NCBI GenBank assembly: GCA_937126915.1
Contig: CAKZLM010000115.1
Span: forward strand, 1 to 55,942
Length of the DNA: 55,942 nt
Source of the DNA: an uncultured Alphaproteobacteria bacterium
GTDB lineage: Bacteria > Pseudomonadota > Alphaproteobacteria > Sphingomonadales > SMXR01
Direction: 5' to 3'
Shown here: positions 37,261 through 45,192 of the stretch, piece by piece
Layout of the letters: every line of letters starts with the position of its first letter
How positions within the stretch are numbered: position 1 is the stretch's first letter
Notes under the pieces: generated by a model
Databases searched by the model: none
Seen by the model: the letters and a program-made list of their open reading frames with translations, nothing else
Told to the model about the DNA's origin: nothing
Program-made: the position numbers and the translations under genes

Positions 37261-38943
37261 TCAATCCATTGGAACGCTATGATGACCAATTTTAGCATCA
37301 CCGGTTTCAAGGAATTTTTCTAGGCGCTTGGCTGTTTCATTCATGACGTCACCCCATGGCGTGCCAAAGTCATAGCCAGTGTAGATGGCATTAGGCACCA
37401 TAGGTGGGCCATATTTCGATCCAAAGTTCCACCAAACACGGTCAAAGCACAGCCACCAAGTGGGGATGCCGGTAGAAGCTGCAAACATGGTGGTACTAAT
37501 GCCTGCTCCAATCATGATATCAAGGTTTTGCATGATGGCAAATTGTTCTTCCAAATTGTTTCGTAGATCAATATCTGGCTTATAAATCTGGATGCCGTGC
37601 TTTTTCTCAAATGCCGCAATTTCTTCGTCGCAATCTGTATATTGTAGCGCAATTACCTTAACGCCTTTAGTTTTAATAATCGGCAGCATTGTTTCGAGGT
37701 TAAAATAGACAGTATCACGATAGGCATCGCTTTTAGAGCTGGTCCAAGCAACACCAACTTTCTTTTCAGGCCCCATGTCGTTAAAGATTTTGCGCCATTT
37801 TGCGACATCATCATCATTACCCTTAAAAAAGCCATTTTCAAAAATTGGGAAGTCTTCGGTTTTACGGGCATAAATTTTACCCGCAACCCCAGCTTCAAGG
37901 GCATAATCAATATTGGCCTCTCCATCCCTAATTTTATATTCCAGTTCAGTGTAGCTTCTATAGAGATAACCTGAGCCAAGCCCTGTGTTATGAGCATAAA
38001 TTTCACAGTTGGGGAACGCGCGCTGAAAAGCTGGGACAAGTCGTCGATCACAGCCAATGTATGTTTTTTGAGCTCGCTCTACCAATGGGGCGTAGATCAT
38101 GGCAAATAAAATTTCATCACCAACCCCTTGCTCAGCATGGATAAAAAGTGTTTTTTTACTGATGTCTTGACCGCGCCATGGCTTGGCTTTTAGTGTATAT
38201 ATCAAGGCATTGTTATCCTTGACTAGGCGGCTTTCGTAGAGTTTCCAAGCCTTTTTAATGTCACCTATTCGAAAATAATCAAAGGCTAAAGATGTGCGAA
38301 TTTCATGATTTTTCGGGTTGATTTTATGGGCCTTTTCCATCAAGGCCATTTTTTCATCTGGTCTACCCATTAAATTGAGGGCAATGGCTTTGTTATTGAT
38401 AGCGCTCACGGCTTTAGGGTTTAGTCTTAAGGCTTCATCATAGAAAACCATGGCTTCTTCATAGCGCCGTGTGTGAGCTAATTGTGTGCCAAGAATATTC
38501 CATAATTCTGGTCTGTCAGCAAATCTTGGTATGGCTGCTTGAAGAAATTCTATAGCTTCTTCATTTCGACGTAACAGGCCAAGAATGTTGGAATAGCCGG
38601 CATAAGCTTCATAATCGTCGGGAAAAGCTTCAATGAAGATTCTATAGAGTTTTTCGGCTTGTTCAAGCATGCCTAGTTTTTGGCACATGTCACCCATGAC
38701 CGAGAGAACATCCCGCGTAGGCCCTAATTTTTCAAAGGCCTTTTCTAGTACTAAGACGGCCTTATCACGTACACCTAACTGAACCATTAAGTGCGAAATA
38801 ATGACAAGAAGGTCGCTATCTTCTGGCACAATATCCCAAGCTTTTACATAATATTTTGCCGATTGTTCCCATTCACCTGCTTGATGGTGTTTGGCGCCCA
38901 ATTGAACATATTTTGCTAACTTATCCTGCGTTGCGGCATCCAT
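37261..38943 (-). CDS. TPR protein with C-terminal glycosyltransferase-like domain
   Basis: 560 aa from the ATG at 38943 (a GTG start lies two codons upstream; GAGGA precedes both). About residues 8-250 hold TPR repeats (for example RYEEAMVFYDEALRLNPKAVSAINNKAIALNLMG). From about 260 a GT9-like/ADP-heptose-transferase-type domain follows, with HAEQGVGDEILFAMIYAPL and later GVAWTSSKSDAYRDTVYF. TPR fused to such a domain occurs in proteins that glycosylate flagellin in motile Alphaproteobacteria. A sigma-54 promoter back-to-back with that of flbT supports a flagellar role. Glycosyl donor unknown. Confidence 0.7.
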   Translation of the reverse strand: MDAATQDKLAKYVQLGAKHHQAGEWEQSAKYYVKAWDIVPEDSDLLVIISHLMVQLGVRDKAVLVLEKAFEKLGPTRDVLSVMGDMCQKLGMLEQAEKLYRIFIEAFPDDYEAYAGYSNILGLLRRNEEAIEFLQAAIPRFADRPELWNILGTQLAHTRRYEEAMVFYDEALRLNPKAVSAINNKAIALNLMGRPDEKMALMEKAHKINPKNHEIRTSLAFDYFRIGDIKKAWKLYESRLVKDNNALIYTLKAKPWRGQDISKKTLFIHAEQGVGDEILFAMIYAPLVERAQKTYIGCDRRLVPAFQRAFPNCEIYAHNTGLGSGYLYRSYTELEYKIRDGEANIDYALEAGVAGKIYARKTEDFPIFENGFFKGNDDDVAKWRKIFNDMGPEKKVGVAWTSSKSDAYRDTVYFNLETMLPIIKTKGVKVIALQYTDCDEEIAAFEKKHGIQIYKPDIDLRNNLEEQFAIMQNLDIMIGAGISTTMFAASTGIPTWWLCFDRVWWNFGSKYGPPMVPNAIYTGYDFGTPWGDVMNETAKRLEKFLETGDAKIGHHSVPMD

Positions 38944-39075
38944 AATCACTGGTCCTCAATATAAGTCATTAACGTAGGTGTTTTACAACATTAATGAGCG
39001 ATAGAACTGAATGCAATCATTGAAATATCTTATCGCAGCAATAATTTGCTAAACAGTATCATTTGTTTTTTGTGA

Positions 39076-39241: not shown

Positions 39242-39658
39242 ATGGCTTTGAAGTTATCACTAAAGCCGGGAGAGAAATTTGTATTGAATGGCGCCGTGGT
39301 TGCGAATGGCGACAGGAGAGCGAGTTTAATAGTTCATAATAAAGCGTCAATTTTGCGAGAGCGCGACATTATGAAAGAAGAGGATGTGAATACACCAGCC
39401 AAGCGGATCTATTTCCCGATTATGCTGATGTATTTGGATGATACGGAGTTTGATAAATATTATGACGAATTTATCCTGCGTATGACCGAGTTTTTGAGCG
39501 TTGTAGAAACGCCAGAAGTTATTGAGATATGTGTCTCGATTAGTAAAGATGTAATGTCACGAAACTATTATAAAGCTTTGGTAAGCTGTAAAAAGGTTGT
39601 GGCATTTGAAGAGGAGAGACTAAGCAATGTCAATGCAAGCTTATCAGCAGGCGGCTAA
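39242..39658 (+). CDS. flbT: FlbT, post-transcriptional regulator of flagellin
   Basis: 138 aa. FlbT in Caulobacter binds the 5' untranslated region of flagellin mRNA and limits its translation and stability (known). The family block MALKLSLKPGEKFVLNGAVVANGDRRASLIVHNKASILRERDIM is intact over the first 44 residues, and ALVSCKKVVAFEEERL closes the conserved core. Start at ATG 39242 with GGGGATAGG ahead. It overlaps flaF by 32 nt. The four flagellin leaders downstream are its likely RNA targets (inference). Confidence 0.92.
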   Translation: MALKLSLKPGEKFVLNGAVVANGDRRASLIVHNKASILRERDIMKEEDVNTPAKRIYFPIMLMYLDDTEFDKYYDEFILRMTEFLSVVETPEVIEICVSISKDVMSRNYYKALVSCKKVVAFEEERLSNVNASLSAGG

Positions 39659-40073
39659 GGTATCAGAAACACCGTCTCAGACTGAATATCGGCTCTTTAC
39701 AGAAGTGACGCGTTCTTTGATTAAGGCAAAAGAATCTGGTGAACGTGACCAAGGCTTTTTCAAGGCGTTGGACTGGAACCGTCGTATGTGGTCTGTGCTC
39801 TCAACGGATTGCGGCGCAGAAGGCAATCAACTGCCGAAAGAATTGCGCGCTGGAATTATCTCTTTGGCCATTTGGGTATCCAAATATAGCTCTGAGGTTG
39901 CACGAGGTGATCAAGACATTGATGCTTTGATTGATGTTAACCGTAATGTGATGGAAGGGTTGGCCATGCAAATGCGCCCGAAAGAGCAACCTTCTCAGGC
40001 TCAGCAACCTCAAAATCAAGCTGAACTTGATGCAGCACGTCAAAAATTAGCTGCCTTTTCAGCTGAAGTGTAA
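39627..40073 (+). CDS. flaF: FlaF, flagellin synthesis regulator
   Basis: 148 aa. FlaF is a partner of FlbT needed for flagellin secretion or translation in Alphaproteobacteria. The conserved YQQAAKVSETPSQTEYRLFTEVTRSL at the N-terminus and FFKALDWNRRMWSVLSTDC in the middle are family hallmarks. The last 30 residues are a Gln/Pro-rich disordered tail (EQPSQAQQPQNQAEL) not part of the core. It overlaps flbT by 32 nt, so the two are translationally coupled. Confidence 0.9.
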   Translation: MSMQAYQQAAKVSETPSQTEYRLFTEVTRSLIKAKESGERDQGFFKALDWNRRMWSVLSTDCGAEGNQLPKELRAGIISLAIWVSKYSSEVARGDQDIDALIDVNRNVMEGLAMQMRPKEQPSQAQQPQNQAELDAARQKLAAFSAEV

Positions 40074-40572
40074 GGCTTGTGTTGCGGGTTATTGCTTTTG
40101 CGGTCCTTCTTCTTAGGATCCCAGTTGATTATAATAACATAGTATTCTCGTTGTTAGAATGAGCGCTGTTTTTTAATAAGTGCTGACCTTCACCCTCTTA
40201 AATTTTTTTGAATCTAATCGGCCAGGCTTTTTATGTCAATTCTGTGCCGATGCCTTGTGTTGTGCCAGCTTTATGTTGGCGCTTGTTTAGTTATTTCGCT
40301 TTTCACAATGATTATAATATCTCAAAATATCGCCACCATTTTTTTAGGGTGGTGTTCTCGTCATTAATCATGCTCATAGATTATAGTATAGCTCGTTGAT
40401 CATTTTGTGTTTAGCTGGGTAATATTTTCCTACCAGTAACATCAATCTGGCCGATTTTTCCTGGTTAGGTAAAAAGTTCCTATACGAATTGGAGCTTTTT
40501 TCCGCCCTGTAGGCAGATAATTCCCTATACTTATCAATAGGTTGAAAATTTTTCCTAGTGTGTAGGTAAAAT
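40074..40572. other. Long intergenic region with clustered repeats upstream of the first flagellin
   Basis: Repeated half-sites of the form TTCCTA and TAGG-x-AAA: TTTTCCTA at 40425-40432, TTTTTCCT-GGTT-AGGTAAAAA at 40455-40475, GTTCCTATA at 40476-40484, TTCCCTATA at 40521-40529, and a near-perfect dyad AATTTTTCCTA (40547-40557) / TAGGTAAAATT (40563-40573) that touches the sigma-54 promoter. This looks like an activator array, by position perhaps for FlbD-type NtrC-family regulators. No gene is supported here. Confidence 0.5.
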
Positions 40573-40588
40573 TGGCCTAGTCATTGCA
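40573..40588 (+). promoter_or_regulatory. Sigma-54 promoter of the first flagellin gene
   Basis: TGGCCT (40573-40578), five bases, TTGCA (40584-40588), with GG at 40574-40575 and GC at 40586-40587, 10 nt apart. The predicted +1 is about 40599, at the edge of the first leader hairpin. Confidence 0.75.
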
Positions 40589-40600
40589 TGTTCCATCACG

Positions 40601-40656
40601 AGGCAAAATGCCTTGCAGACAAAATGTCTGTATTTTTAACTTCAAAATGAAGGAGG
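40601..40656 (+). promoter_or_regulatory. Leader of flagellin 1: three A-loop hairpins reaching into the ribosome site
   Basis: AGGCA-AAA-TGCCT (40601-40613), CAGACA-AAA-TGTCTG (40616-40630) and CTTCA-AAA-TGAAG (40640-40652). All share the centre CAAAATG while the flanks differ and remain complementary. The right arm of the third overlaps the AAGGAGG ribosome site (40650-40656). Confidence 0.75.
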
Positions 40657-40662
40657 CCTATA

Positions 40663-41481
40663 ATGGGTTTTTCTGTAAATACTAATGGCGGCGCTCTTGT
40701 CGCTCTACAAAACTTGAACAAAACAGCTAACTCGCTAAATACTGTTCAATCTCGCATTAACACTGGTTTGAAAGTTTCTTCAGCCAAAGATAATGCTGCC
40801 GTTTTCAACATTGCTCAGGGCCTACGTGCTGATTTGGGTGGTTTGAACTCTGCTAAATCTTCTATTGACCGCGCGATTTCTACAATCGACGTTGGCATTG
40901 CTGCTGGTGAGGCAGTTAGTGACTTGTTGATTGAGATGAAAGAGAAAGCTATTGCAGCAAAAGACACGGGTCTTGACGCGGATAGCCGTACTGCTTTGAA
41001 CGATGAGTTTAAAGAGCTTCGTGATCAGATTACAACTATTGTCGACAATGCTGAGTTTAACGGTGTGAACGCTGTTAAGTCTAACGCCGTTGTTGCTTTG
41101 TTGAACTCTGACGGTTCAAACAGCTTAACTGTTGCTGCTCAAAACATGTCTTTGGGTGGGTCAATTGTTACTGTTGCGGCTGCTGCGACTATTGGTGGTT
41201 CTACCGCTGCTGGTACTGTTGCTACTGCGATCGATACTTCAATTAAGAATGTTGGTACAGCCTTGTCTAAACTAGGTTCTGGTTCAAAACGTCTTGAGCT
41301 ACAAAAAACCTTCGTTAACAAGCTTTCTGACAGCATCGAAGTTGGTATTGGTAACTTGGTTGACGCTGACTTGGCTCGTGAGAGTGCTCAGTTGCAGTCA
41401 TTGCAGGTGCGTCAACAGCTTGGTTTGCAAGCGTTGTCTATCGCCAATCAGGCTCCAAGTTCAGTGCTATCACTGTTCTAG
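40663..41481 (+). CDS. Flagellin 1
   Basis: 272 aa, a short flagellin made of the D0/D1 core with a small central domain. N-terminal MGFSVNTNGGALVALQNLNKTANSL and SRINTGLKVSSAKDNAAVFNIAQGLRADLGGLN are flagellin helices; the C-terminal SIEVGIGNLVDADLARESAQLQSLQVRQQLGLQALSIANQAPSSVLSLF forms the matching half. The centre (about 135-195, Ala/Ser/Thr-rich) is variable among copies. It exits through the flagellar secretion system and polymerises into the filament. Sigma-54 promoter and hairpin leader directly upstream. Confidence 0.95.
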   Translation: MGFSVNTNGGALVALQNLNKTANSLNTVQSRINTGLKVSSAKDNAAVFNIAQGLRADLGGLNSAKSSIDRAISTIDVGIAAGEAVSDLLIEMKEKAIAAKDTGLDADSRTALNDEFKELRDQITTIVDNAEFNGVNAVKSNAVVALLNSDGSNSLTVAAQNMSLGGSIVTVAAAATIGGSTAAGTVATAIDTSIKNVGTALSKLGSGSKRLELQKTFVNKLSDSIEVGIGNLVDADLARESAQLQSLQVRQQLGLQALSIANQAPSSVLSLF

Positions 41482-41500
41482 GATAACTTTCTCCAGGAAT

Positions 41501-41522
41501 TATGGGGTCTTAGGGCCCCATA
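41501..41522 (+). terminator. Hairpin after flagellin 1
   Basis: TATGGGG (41501-41507) and CCCCATA (41516-41522) pair over an 8-nt loop. There is no T tract, so read-through into flaG is likely; it may instead stabilise the flagellin mRNA 3' end. Confidence 0.4.
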
Positions 41523-41623
41523 TCTTCCGCTTAGGGTCCTTGTAGAATAGAAAAATATCACAAGGATGGATGGAAAACAGACGTGGTGACAGACACTGCG
41601 CCATAGATCGAAGGATCGGTACA

Positions 41624-42073
41624 ATGAGCGATATTACATTCAATATCAAAGCTCTCGGTGGTGCAGCTAGCTATGGCAGTGAACCCCCAAATACAAAAAG
41701 AACTGCCAATGAGAGCGGCACTAAAGTAAATGCGGCTAAAACAGAAACCCTTGATGTAAAAATTGATGGTCAACAAAGCTTATCGCTTTCTGAGCGTATG
41801 GCAGCTGAAACAGAAGAGAAGAAAGGCTTTGGCTTTGATGCCGTTGCTGACCCTCTTGAGGAAGCTGCGAAAATTTTGGATAGTTTTATTCCAAAACAAA
41901 CGCCAGAAACACGCTTGCAGATTGATCATGATGAAGAAACAGGGCGTTTCATTTATAAAAGTGTGGATAAAATTTCAGGAGAGACTGTCCGTCAATTCCC
42001 GCCAGAATATATGCTGAAGGTGCTTGAATTGCATCGCAATGCAGCAGGCCTGGTGATGGATGACGAGGTATAG
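41624..42073 (+). CDS. flaG: FlaG-family flagellar protein
   Basis: 149 aa from ATG 41624 (AAGGAT upstream; a frame from 41570 exists). The C-terminal 60 residues carry the FlaG pattern LQIDHDEETGRFIYKSVDKISGETVRQFPPEYMLKVLEL. The N-terminal 90 are low-complexity and polar. FlaG affects filament length or cap in several bacteria, but is less usual beside FlbT/FlaF. It sits between flagellin 1 and 2 and probably shares transcripts with them. Confidence 0.8.
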   Translation: MSDITFNIKALGGAASYGSEPPNTKRTANESGTKVNAAKTETLDVKIDGQQSLSLSERMAAETEEKKGFGFDAVADPLEEAAKILDSFIPKQTPETRLQIDHDEETGRFIYKSVDKISGETVRQFPPEYMLKVLELHRNAAGLVMDDEV

Positions 42074-42329
42074 TTTAAACCTTAAGTCTACACAAACACA
42101 TGACGAGACATATACAAGAAGCTTAAGATTCTTGTAAGGGTACATATTTGTCTTCTAATTCTTTTAACTGACCCCAAATTCTGTGGTGTGTCAGCCTTCC
42201 TTGATTCTGAAAATGAAATAATATTTCAAAAATGTGATTTTTGCCTTTAGTGTTCGGAAAAAAATGCATGCTAATAATTCTGTCATTATATCAGTATGTT
42301 AAAGGAATATTTATCTCCAGTTGAAGCAG
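42074..42329. other. Intergenic region between flaG and flagellin 2
   Basis: With the adjoining leader this makes 366 bases without a gene. A 7-bp hairpin, ACAAGAA (42114-42120) / TTCTTGT (42129-42135), lies 40 nt past flaG, without a T tract. The rest is AT-rich up to the operator-like dyad at 42330. Confidence 0.4.
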
Positions 42330-42353
42330 GTTTTGCCGAGCTCTAGGCAAAAC
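42330..42353 (+). promoter_or_regulatory. Operator-like dyad before the flagellin 2 sigma-54 promoter
   Basis: GTTTTGCC (42330-42337) and GGCAAAAC (42346-42353) form a perfect inverted repeat with 8 nt between, ending one base before the -24 element. Its TTGCC/GGCAA half-sites resemble the pair flanking the flbT promoter, so the same regulator may bind both. Confidence 0.5.
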
Positions 42354-42369
42354 TGGCACGGTAATTGAA
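42354..42369 (+). promoter_or_regulatory. Sigma-54 promoter of flagellin 2
   Basis: TGGCAC (42354-42359), five bases, TTGAA (42365-42369). The -24 part is perfect, the -12 part has GA in place of GC. Predicted +1 near 42380 coincides with the first base of the first leader hairpin. Confidence 0.65.
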
Positions 42370-42379
42370 ATGTGGTTTT

Positions 42380-42432
42380 CGTGGCAAAAAGTGTCACGGA
42401 GGCAAAAGGCCTCAATTTGATCCAGAATGGAG
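42380..42432 (+). promoter_or_regulatory. Leader of flagellin 2: three hairpins, last one covering the ribosome site
   Basis: CGTGGCA-AAAAG-TGTCACG (42380-42398, one G-T pair), GAGGC-AAAAG-GCCTC (42399-42413) and TCCA-GAA-TGGA (42421-42431). The last contains most of the GGAG ribosome site. Confidence 0.7.
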
Positions 42433-42439
42433 ATATACA

Positions 42440-43261
42440 ATGGGTTTTTCTGTAAACACTAATGCAGGTGCGCTTACTGCTCTGCAAAATTTGAATAAAA
42501 CTGACAGCTTGATGCAAAAAGTACAGTCTCGTATTAACACAGGCTTGAAAGTTGCGTCTGCTAAAGATAACGCTGCTGTGTTTAACATTGCTCAGGGCCT
42601 TCGTGCTGACTTGGGCGGTTTGAACTCGGCAAAAGCGTCCATAGACCGTGCGATTTCGACCATCGACGTAGCAATTTCTGCTGGCGAAGCCATCAGTGAC
42701 TTGTTGATCGAGATGAAAGAAAAAGCGGTTGCTGCAAAAGATTCTGGTTTGGATAGCGATAGCCGTACTGCGCTCAATGACGAGTACAAAGAGCTTCGCA
42801 GTCAGATTCAAACAATTGTTGATAATGCGGAATTTAATGGTGTTAACGCGGTTAAAGATAACGATATAGTTGCGATCTTAAACCCCAATGCGACGAACAC
42901 GTTAACTATTGGTGCTCAAAACCTATCTTTGAGTGGCAGCATCGTATCATTGACAACAACTTCTAGTATTTCGACATCGACAGCTGCTACGGCTGTGGCT
43001 ACGGCGATTGATAACTCAATTAAAGCTGTAGGTGCAAGTCTATCTAAGCTGGGTTCAGGTGCGAAACGCTTAGAATTGCAAAAAACTTTCGTCAACAAAT
43101 TATCAGATAGCATTGAAGTAGGTATTGGAAACCTTGTTGATGCAGATCTGGCTCGAGAGAGTGCGAACTTGCAGTCAATGCAGGTAAGACAGCAACTTGG
43201 CCTACAAGCCTTAGGTATTGCTAACCAGGCCCCAAGTGCGATTATCTCACTCTTCGGATAA
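42440..43261 (+). CDS. Flagellin 2
   Basis: 273 aa, same architecture as flagellin 1 with conserved D0/D1 halves and a variable Ser/Thr/Ala-rich centre (about 140-195). The start was set at ATG 42440 by homology to the other copies (MGFSVNTNAGALTALQNLN); an upstream frame to 42365 is untranslated leader. It has its own sigma-54 promoter and ends IISLFG where the others read VLSLF(G). It is among the more diverged copies. Confidence 0.95.
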   Translation: MGFSVNTNAGALTALQNLNKTDSLMQKVQSRINTGLKVASAKDNAAVFNIAQGLRADLGGLNSAKASIDRAISTIDVAISAGEAISDLLIEMKEKAVAAKDSGLDSDSRTALNDEYKELRSQIQTIVDNAEFNGVNAVKDNDIVAILNPNATNTLTIGAQNLSLSGSIVSLTTTSSISTSTAATAVATAIDNSIKAVGASLSKLGSGAKRLELQKTFVNKLSDSIEVGIGNLVDADLARESANLQSMQVRQQLGLQALGIANQAPSAIISLFG

Positions 43262-43324
43262 AGATAGAATTCACAGGATTTTTGAATAAAAAACCAGCTT
43301 AAAACCGCCCTGAATAGGGGTCAC

Positions 43325-43397
43325 GATACAAATGTATCAAAATGAAAATGGCCAGAAGGCCGTCTAGCAAAATGCTAGATAAAATCCAGAATGGAGA
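43325..43397 (+). promoter_or_regulatory. Leader of flagellin 3: four hairpins, last one covering the ribosome site
   Basis: GATAC-AAAT-GTATC (43325-43338), GGCC-AGAA-GGCC (43350-43361), TCTAGCA-AAA-TGCTAGA (43363-43379) and TCCA-GAA-TGGA (43385-43395). GGAGAAG overlaps the last stem. No sigma-54 sequence was found upstream, so read-through from flagellin 2 or another promoter type is likely. Confidence 0.7.
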
Positions 43398-43403
43398 AGA
43401 AAA

Positions 43404-44225
43404 ATGGGTTTTTCAGTAAATACAAATGCAGGTGCTTTGGTTGCCCTTCAAAACTTAAACAAAACCAATAACTTAATGAATCAAGTTCAAACTCGTATTA
43501 ACACAGGTTTGAAAGTGTCTTCGGCAAAAGATAACGCTGCGGTTTTCAACATCGCACAGGGTTTACGGGCTGACTTAGGTGGTTTAAATTCTGCCAAGTC
43601 ATCAATTGACCGCGCCATCTCTACCATCGATGTTGCCATTTCTGCTGGCGAAGCAGTGAGTGACTTGTTGATCGAGATGAAAGAGAAGGCGGTTGCTTCT
43701 AAAGACACTGGTCTTGATGCAGACAGCCGGACTGCTTTGAACGATGAGTTCAAAGAGCTGCGTAATCAAATTACCACTATTGTTGACAATGCCGAGTTTA
43801 ATGGTGTTAACGCGGTTAAAACCAATGCGGTTGTGGCTTTGCTAAACTCTGACGGTTCAAATAGCTTAACAATTGCTGCACAGAATCTTTCTTTAGGTGG
43901 TGGTGTTGTTACTGTAACAGCTGGTTCATCAATCAGCAGCTCAACACTTGCTAGCAGCGTGTCAACTGCTATCGACAACTCAATTAAGGCTGTTGGAACA
44001 TCACTCTCAAAACTAGGGTCAGGTGCCAAGCGTCTTGAGTTGCAAAAAACTTTCGTCAACAAACTAGCTGACAGTATCGAGGTTGGTATTGGTAACTTGG
44101 TTGATGCCGACTTGGCCCGGGAAAGTGCAAATTTACAGTCAATGCAGGTTAGACAGCAGCTAGGGCGCCAAGCGTTGGGCATTGCCAACCAGGCTCCAAG
44201 TTCTGTGTTGTCACTATTCGGTTAA
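43404..44225 (+). CDS. Flagellin 3
   Basis: 273-aa flagellin of the same short type. It differs from the others near the C-terminus by RQQLGRQALG where they have RQQLGLQAL. 59 nt including its ribosome site and first codons (43383-43441) are identical to the same part of flagellin 4, pointing to recent duplication or gene conversion. Confidence 0.95.
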   Translation: MGFSVNTNAGALVALQNLNKTNNLMNQVQTRINTGLKVSSAKDNAAVFNIAQGLRADLGGLNSAKSSIDRAISTIDVAISAGEAVSDLLIEMKEKAVASKDTGLDADSRTALNDEFKELRNQITTIVDNAEFNGVNAVKTNAVVALLNSDGSNSLTIAAQNLSLGGGVVTVTAGSSISSSTLASSVSTAIDNSIKAVGTSLSKLGSGAKRLELQKTFVNKLADSIEVGIGNLVDADLARESANLQSMQVRQQLGRQALGIANQAPSSVLSLFG

Positions 44226-44239
44226 TAAACTTTTATGGG

Positions 44240-44258
44240 TGGCCCTGAATAAGGGCCA
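44240..44258 (+). terminator. Hairpin after flagellin 3
   Basis: TGGCCCT (44240-44246) and AGGGCCA (44252-44258) pair over GAATA. A similar CCCT-GAAT-AGGG stem follows flagellin 2 at 43308-43319. Neither has a T tract, so they are more likely 3' mRNA structures than full terminators. Confidence 0.4.
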
Positions 44259-44289
44259 TCTATCCCACCCCTTAGAAACAAGGGATAAC

Positions 44290-44364
44290 GGTATAAAACA
44301 TACCAAACTTTAACAGGCTATAAGGGCCACCCGACAAAATGTCGGACCTAATCCAGAATGGAGA
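44290..44364 (+). promoter_or_regulatory. Leader of flagellin 4: three hairpins, last one covering the ribosome site
   Basis: GGTAT-AAAAC-ATACC (44290-44304), CCGACA-AAA-TGTCGG (44331-44345) and TCCA-GAA-TGGA (44352-44362), the last again including the GGAGAAG ribosome site. No sigma-54 promoter recognised. Confidence 0.7.
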
Positions 44365-44370
44365 AGAAAA

Positions 44371-45192
44371 ATGGGTTTTTCAGTAAATACAAATGCAGGT
44401 GCTTTGGTAGCTCTTCAAAACTTGAACAAAACCAATACCATGATGAACAAAACGCAAAGTGCTATTAACACAGGTTTGAAAGTGGCCTCAGCAAAAGACA
44501 ATGCAGCTGTTTTCAACATCGCACAGGGTTTGCGCGCTGACTTGGGCGGTTTAAATTCTGCTAAGTCATCCATCGACCGCGCTATCTCAACCATCGACGT
44601 TGCTATTTCTGCTGGTGAAGCGGTTAGTGACTTGTTGATTGAGATGAAAGAAAAAGCGGTTGCTTCTAAAGACACTGGTCTTGATGCTGATAGCCGTACT
44701 GCGTTGAATGACGAGTATAAAGAGCTTCGTAATCAGATTACCACTATTGTCGACAATGCTGAATTTAACGGTGTAAACGCGGTTAAAACCAATGCTATTG
44801 TGGCTCTATTGAATTCTGACGGTTCAAACAGCTTAACCGTTGCTGCTCAAAACATGTCTTTGGGAGGATCGATCGTAACTGTAGCAGCTGCCTCTTCTAT
44901 CGGCGACTCTGCTACTGCCTCTACTCAGGCTGCTGCGATTGACGCTTCAATTAAGAATGTTGGAACAGCTCTATCTAAACTAGGTTCGGGCTCAAAACGT
45001 CTTGAGCTACAAAAAACCTTCGTTAATAAGCTATCTGACAGCATCGAAGTCGGTATCGGTAACTTGGTTGACGCTGACTTGGCTCGTGAAAGTGCAAACT
45101 TGCAGTCCTTGCAGGTACGTCAACAGCTTGGTCTACAAGCGTTGGGTATTGCCAATCAGGCTCCAAGTTCTGTGTTGTCACTATTCGGTTAA
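44371..45192 (+). CDS. Flagellin 4
   Basis: 273-aa short flagellin. The N-terminal part differs from copy 3 at NTMMNKTQSAINTGLKVASAKDN, while the rest is close to copies 1 and 3. The central variable part (VAAASSIGDSATASTQAAAI) is its most distinct region. Last of the array and followed by a strong terminator. Confidence 0.95.
   Translation: MGFSVNTNAGALVALQNLNKTNTMMNKTQSAINTGLKVASAKDNAAVFNIAQGLRADLGGLNSAKSSIDRAISTIDVAISAGEAVSDLLIEMKEKAVASKDTGLDADSRTALNDEYKELRNQITTIVDNAEFNGVNAVKTNAIVALLNSDGSNSLTVAAQNMSLGGSIVTVAAASSIGDSATASTQAAAIDASIKNVGTALSKLGSGSKRLELQKTFVNKLSDSIEVGIGNLVDADLARESANLQSLQVRQQLGLQALGIANQAPSSVLSLFG

Follow-up and report, generated by a model that had tools for sequence, protein, structure and literature searches.

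The closest described counterpart of the RNA element reported here is the leader of the flagellin gene fljK of Caulobacter crescentus. Anderson and Gober reportedly described in 2000 the control of this 5' leader by FlbT, and Ardissone in 2020 is said to have described co-repression by FlbT and FljJ. Our subject is a 55,942-nucleotide stretch of DNA from an uncultured alphaproteobacterium (Sphingomonadales, SMXR01; GCA_937126915.1, contig CAKZLM010000115.1), called the window throughout, in which arrays of short hairpins with A-rich loops directly precede the start codons of flagellin genes in a genome that encodes FlbT. Gene family, position, and candidate regulator are the same as in the fljK system, and Caulobacter leaders share the tandem C-AAAAN-G hairpins; the cross-order consensus, the geometry of the array, its member at the Shine-Dalgarno (SD) sequence, and the genome-wide specificity were worked out in this study and go beyond that system. 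Neither Rfam 15 nor the searched literature, which excluded the paper by Anderson and Gober 2000, yielded a description of the hairpin consensus. Within the literature searched, the action of FlbT on the fljK leader is already known and the hairpin consensus is apparently newly described. According to a 2015 review, neither the motif recognized by FlbT nor its mechanism has been resolved (PMC4347634).

Hairpins in flagellin leaders, one of them at the SD sequence, also occur in the CsrA/RsmA-type leaders of Bacillus hag and Campylobacter flaA, where a small regulator binds them and relief is linked to flagellin homeostasis. Given this like logic, and a GGA at the SD sequence, the hairpins of the window might be taken for CsrA/RsmA-type sites themselves. 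Their loops, however, are A-R-A-A-N instead of GGA, and the GGA of the SD sequence lies in a stem instead of a loop. Furthermore, no CsrA gene was found in the genome of this bacterium, and none in 59 of 60 relatives. CsrA was ruled out as the ligand because its gene was not found in this genome, and sites of this type are an extremely improbable explanation.

The flg-Rhizobiales RNA motif (RF01736) is a further conserved, structured RNA of Alphaproteobacteria, its flagellar link being judged by name. Neither RF01736 nor any other Rfam family gave a match at the gathering score in the window and eight other loci, and RF01736 was not matched in the leaders at E-values up to 5; a known Rfam family was rejected for lack of a covariance-model match. 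ANTAR targets, which antiterminators read, resemble the arrays as two tandem stem-loops recognized in leaders, according to a review (PMC4347634). Whereas ANTAR targets control termination, the third hairpin here embraces the SD sequence, and no intrinsic terminator was seen between array and start codon.

The flagellin genes and all hairpins of the window lie on the plus strand. Ahead of fla1 (40663-41481, PF00669 and PF00700), the hairpins are GAGGC-AAAAT-GCCTT (40600-40614), CAGAC-AAAAT-GTCTG (40616-40630), and CTTC-AAAAT-GAAG (40640-40652), the 3' arm of the last running into the SD sequence AAGGAGG. The leader of fla2 (42440-43261) contains the arms CGTGGC and GTCACG around an A-rich loop (42380-42398), GAGGC-AAAAG-GCCTC (42399-42413, found in the pentamer scan described below), and TCC-AGAAT-GGA (42421-42431). 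For fla3 (43404-44225), GATAC-AAAT-GTATC lies upstream (43325-43338) and is followed by GGCC-AGAA-GGCC (43350-43361), TCTAGC-AAAAT-GCTAGA (43363-43379), and TCC-AGAAT-GGA (43385-43395). For fla4 (44371-45192), CCCTT-AGAAAC-AAGGG lies far upstream (44269-44284), followed by GGTAT-AAAAC-ATACC (44290-44304), CCGAC-AAAAT-GTCGG (44331-44345), and TCC-AGAAT-GGA (44352-44362). The last hairpin of each leader (TCC-AGAAT-GGA, or CTTC-AAAAT-GAAG in fla1) belongs to the set and touches the SD sequence. With fla4 as the query, the identities of fla2 and fla3 were 82% and 89%. Hairpins in all four leaders, as claimed in the preliminary description, were thus confirmed at these coordinates.

The word CAAAATG occurs 28 times in the window on both strands, with 6 copies in the flagellin leaders and 22 elsewhere. 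At least three further Watson-Crick pairs flank five of the six leader copies versus none of the 22 others (hypergeometric p = 6e-5); no genuine stem surrounds the sixth leader copy, at 43338. The folding-energy z-scores of the four leaders were -1.75, -2.27, -5.22, and -3.71, and the fla1 and fla2 leaders are only modestly unusual by folding energy alone.

A consensus was derived from a scan for the pentamer ARAAN, with no condition on its flanks, in 99 flagellin leaders of this genome and of relatives from the order. Pentamers flanked by a stem of no fewer than four Watson-Crick pairs made up 28.5% of those in the last 120 nt of these leaders; the share was 4.5% for the preceding 140 nt, 3.2% for the reverse strand, and 0.9% for the window as a whole. 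Among 117 stemmed hairpins, 106 had the core C-AAAAN-G, N being T, G, A, or C. Instead of the shared CAAAATG core put forward previously, the invariant core is C-AAAAN-G with any N, and AGAA is allowed as well. The element can be written as stem-C-[ARAAN]-G-stem, with a fixed loop and closing pair and stems that are free in sequence.

The confinement of the A-rich loop to the sense strand (3.2% on the reverse strand in the same scan) bears on the possibility that the palindromes act as DNA rather than RNA, bound by a transcription factor such as FlbD. Short inverted repeats near sigma54-like promoters would suit such a factor. This explanation is nevertheless very unlikely, as the loop is asymmetric, the half-site sequences differ freely with the pairing kept, the hairpins of fla3 and fla4 occur without a visible promoter, and one member overlaps the SD sequence.

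The hairpins of an array start near positions -60, -42, and -20 relative to the start codon, and the spacing of tandem loops is mostly 14-18 nt. The third hairpin takes forms such as CTCC-AAAAA-GGAG, CTC-AAAAG-GAG, and TCC-AGAAT-GGA, and 35 of 36 such hairpins hold the SD motif in their 3' arm. Mean folding energies were -2.0 kcal/mol for these SD hairpins and -5.5 kcal/mol for the upstream hairpins, so that the two strong upstream hairpins may act as anchors and the weak SD hairpin as a switch. In relatives of one family (f8; leaders L027, L030, L061, L064, L065, and L067), an additional hairpin of the type GTC-AGAAT-GAC was observed approximately 100 nt before the flagellin start, beyond the usual array.

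The mRNA of flagellin is abundant, and mRNAs are known to be stabilized by hairpins at their 5' ends. The energy of the upstream hairpins is in line with passive structures that, with no specific ligand, stabilize such a transcript or adjust its basal level of translation. Passive stability does not, however, call for a fixed A-R-A-A-N loop closed by C-G, as reflected in the 106 of 117 hairpins above, nor does it account for the regular spacing and the joint loss with FlbT. As the stems vary freely and the loop does not, we consider a purely passive role improbable.

Covariation was assessed in 43 windows picked solely by the word CAAAANG between positions -66 and -28 of flagellin leaders, after removal of near-copies. 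Pairing at positions 2, 3, 4, and 5 amounted to 98, 88, 93, and 77%, whereas shuffling of the 3' letters gave means of 70, 60, 53, and 39% and maxima of 79, 70, 65, and 58%. A like tendency was seen in 16 windows of other orders and 20 of Caulobacterales; it was not found in the few CAAAANG words farther upstream. In an alignment of 35 tandem windows, 96.3% of the cells were paired and the covariation score was 0.642 versus 0.258, values that are partly circular as these windows had been picked for pairing. Because the covariation holds in windows picked by CAAAANG alone, without regard to stems, the earlier suggestion of selection on RNA structure is supported.

The specificity of the element was examined with a covariance model of the tandem hairpins (R1), trained from this window on fla1 only. 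R1 needs the tandem: a single hairpin is too short for searching, and single-hairpin targets are beyond its reach. Within the window, the four flagellin leaders occupied ranks 1-4, with E-values of 2.7e-7 for fla1 (40598-40632, the first and second hairpins), 5.9e-4 for fla2 (42379-42415, both upstream hairpins), 0.018 for fla3 (43347-43380), and 0.074 for fla4 (44313-44347); the next match had an E-value of 0.26.

Alphaproteobacterial genomes were also searched with R1, and every confident match in approximately 300 genomes was located at a flagellin. In 60 relatives, the matches with E-values no higher than 8.1e-4 are situated immediately before flagellin starts, as judged from flagellin start coordinates and downstream genes (one match, in G060, was resolved by hand). 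The flagellin genes of close relatives were inspected for absence of the element, and such an absence did not occur. Matches away from flagellins appeared among the relatives at E-values of 0.002 to 0.02, where a few are expected by chance. Over 240 genomes of the class, all 11 matches with E-values of 3.1e-4 or better (this genome included) were at flagellins in FlbT-encoding genomes. Weaker matches in genomes without FlbT (3.4e-4 and up) were located at unrelated sites and seem to be chance matches.

The element co-occurs with FlbT. Within the order, an R1 match of 2e-3 or better was obtained in 29 of 43 FlbT-encoding genomes (this one included) versus 0 of 11 flagellated genomes without FlbT. 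The sole FlbT-encoding genome in the family that otherwise lacks FlbT (G052) has hairpins in its flagellin leader (L118). Class-wide, with this genome excluded, confident matches were obtained in 9 of 81 genomes with FlbT versus 0 of 159 without. The element is present in several orders of the Alphaproteobacteria. In several FlbT-encoding genomes elsewhere in the class that lack the tandem form, a hairpin with an AGAA loop persists at the SD sequence. In four leaders of distant FlbT genomes (L150, L152, L155, and L157), where the tandem form is missing, a hairpin-like stretch of the form CC-(U)AGGAAA-GG or CC-AGAA-GG was noted at the SD sequence.

The strongest link to FlbT is that Caulobacter leaders of the fljK/fljL type carry the element. 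In Caulobacter vibrioides (L242, L243, and L260), the first hairpin of these leaders is GAGC-AAAAC-GCTC or GAGC-AAAAT-GCTC and the second, with an AAAAT loop, is GCC-AAAAT-GGC or GTC-AAAAT-GAC; a stretch resembling CCTTGAAAAGG follows close to the start codon. In Caulobacter, FlbT has been reported from experiments to target the fljK leader (PMC3930126, PMC4347634).

The flagellin paralogues differ in their possession of the array. In a tree of 169 flagellins, with hairpins scored as C-ARAAN-G by a strict criterion, one clade of 25 flagellins of the order lacked the hairpin, and its sister clade had it in 60 of 69 members. The array-free clade includes both paralogues encoded on another contig of this genome (C69; L005). 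In the Caulobacter clade containing FljJ, 12 of 12 members were without the hairpin; the third Caulobacter gene was called fljJ in this analysis by gene order and sequence. FljJ is reported to be the flagellin that is bound by FlbT and turns FlbT into a repressor for as long as FljJ has not been secreted (PMC7591256). The absence of the array from both clades fits the account of FlbT-FljJ co-repression, in which a co-repressor has to be synthesized ahead of the flagellins under its repression. The two C69 flagellins are thus candidate FljJ-type co-repressors by their placement in the tree, and the array-free clade is predicted to mark co-repressor paralogues. Three further flagellin genes were observed in this genome in total, the two on C69 and one on contig C18, whose leader (L007) contains CGGTC-AAAAG-GACCG and a hairpin with an AGAAT loop.

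We consider it likely that the hairpins form a translational operator for FlbT, which probably acts together with an FljJ-like flagellin. This prediction is based on the structure and its covariation, the geometry of the array, the restriction to flagellin leaders, the co-occurrence with FlbT, and the presence in a known FlbT target. Each hairpin would provide one recognition site, made up of a stem of 4-6 bp of free sequence, a C-G closure, and an A-R-A-A-N pentaloop. Two strong sites approximately 16 nt apart would serve as anchors, and the weak third site with the SD sequence as the switch. The A-rich loops would be bound by FlbT, probably assisted by a co-repressing flagellin paralogue, as reported for FljJ in Caulobacter. 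Occupancy of the anchors would favor closure of the SD hairpin and keep ribosomes from starting. Completion of the hook and basal body would lead to secretion of the co-repressor, FlbT would release the leader, and flagellin would be made. We infer the contact between FlbT and the loops, the cooperation of the sites, the closure of the SD hairpin as the block, and, for this bacterium, the direction in which control operates. The earlier proposal of a recognition element for FlbT or FlbT/FlaF keeps its FlbT part through indirect links (the fljK/fljL-type leaders, the co-occurrence, and the lack of CsrA), but its FlaF part was unsupported. FlaF is reported as a flagellin secretion chaperone (PMC7591256).

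Several observations weigh against an operator for FlbT. The 11 flagellated genomes without FlbT are essentially one family, and this control may represent a single evolutionary loss. Many FlbT-encoding genomes elsewhere in the class do not have the tandem AAAA form, as seen from the 9 of 81 with confident matches. Array-free paralogues often keep one AGAAT-type hairpin, sometimes bulged, and may not be entirely outside the control. In addition, FlbT of Brucella is reported to be an activator (PMC8781033), so that repression by FlbT may not be general.

Another RNA-binding protein, for example Hfq, might occupy the A-rich loops instead, with FlbT co-occurring only by shared ancestry. Hfq, which binds A-rich RNA, is encoded in this genome, and the single-family origin of the FlbT-less control leaves room for such a coincidence. 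ARN motifs are listed in a review (PMC4347634). However, Hfq is also encoded in one genome without FlbT (G011), the flagellin leader of which is without the element; the element sits in leaders reported to respond to FlbT; and the model matches occur at flagellins only, a restriction that a global Hfq regulon would not show. A protein of this kind is accordingly an unlikely ligand.

The putative RNA-binding repressor FlbT is encoded at 39242-39658 on the plus strand (PF07378, E 1.7e-44). An AlphaFold2 model (pLDDT 91) comprises a five-stranded N-terminal domain (residues 3-39) and four helices; L38-R39 and E11 are near-invariant. The N-terminal domain (39242-39394 in the window) gave a weak profile match to CsrA in register (hhalign E 0.001-0.003, probability 10-18%). 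Column-shuffled profiles scored as well in 0 of 60 cases with a five-sequence CsrA set and in 1-2 of 60 with a set of 28 sequences. The likeness consists of the strand order, a GE after strand 1, and LREkDI against HREEIY. No CsrA chain was listed by Foldseek or VIA-align for the whole protein or for the 51-residue N-terminal model, although a monomer model may miss CsrA, which is a strand-swapped dimer. The profile resemblance of FlbT and CsrA is suggestive only and serves as a lead.

Foldseek returned nothing below an E-value of 1 for the whole FlbT model. VIA-align of the whole protein gave similarity in the helical half alone, with numerous unrelated bundles including FliS (3iqc, Z 8.1), and was regarded as uninformative; the N-terminal domain alone reached Z 2.0-2.5 to unrelated chains only. 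No solved relative of FlbT or FlaF was found in the PDB by sequence. In one relative (G002), FlbT was matched as two overlapping pieces in different frames (G002:C46:1194-1567), and this flbT may be frame-shifted or affected by an assembly error.

A far broader scheme, which we regard as rather unlikely, would make the arrays an unclassified, protein-bound leader RNA family that is ancient in Alphaproteobacteria. The C-ARAAN-G arrays would be modular and read by FlbT bound to a dedicated flagellin co-repressor, with array-bearing structural and array-free regulatory flagellins forming one switch in most FlbT genomes, and FlbT would be a remote CsrA-like protein that took over the role and the hairpin grammar of CsrA, with an A-rich loop in place of GGA. 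Independently of this scheme, the explicit short consensus (fixed loop, free stems, regular spacing, and SD switch) makes recognition by FlbT directly testable. If the operator reading is true, the element is a compact, modular translational operator, and Alphaproteobacteria, most of which apparently have no CsrA, possess a counterpart that couples organelle assembly to expression by a different RNA grammar.

The remaining features of the locus concern transcription and neighboring genes. The gene flaF (39627-40073, plus strand; PF07309, E 1.8e-33) follows flbT, and flaG (41624-42073) lies between fla1 and fla2. By inspection, sigma54-like promoters were placed on the plus strand before fla1 (TTGGCCTAGTCATTGCA, 40572-40588) and fla2 (CTGGCACGGTAATTGAA, 42353-42369), both putative sites being called by consensus. 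No such site was seen in the leader sequences of fla3 or fla4, which may be transcribed by read-through from fla2. A transcript start ahead of all four genes, as assumed previously, is thus suggested for fla1 and fla2 but not for fla3 and fla4. G+C-rich inverted repeats were noted past the stop codons of fla1, fla2, and fla3 (41503-41524, 43308-43320, and 44241-44257), for example GGCCCT-GAATA-AGGGCC at 44241 after fla3. They have no T run behind them and may mark either 3' ends or sites of processing between flagellin genes. Adjoining flbT on the minus strand (37261-38949), a protein of 562 residues with tetratricopeptide (TPR) repeats is encoded, the profile match covering the TPR part only. 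Its layout recalls that of FlmG, the TPR flagellin glycosyltransferase of Caulobacter (PMC7591256).

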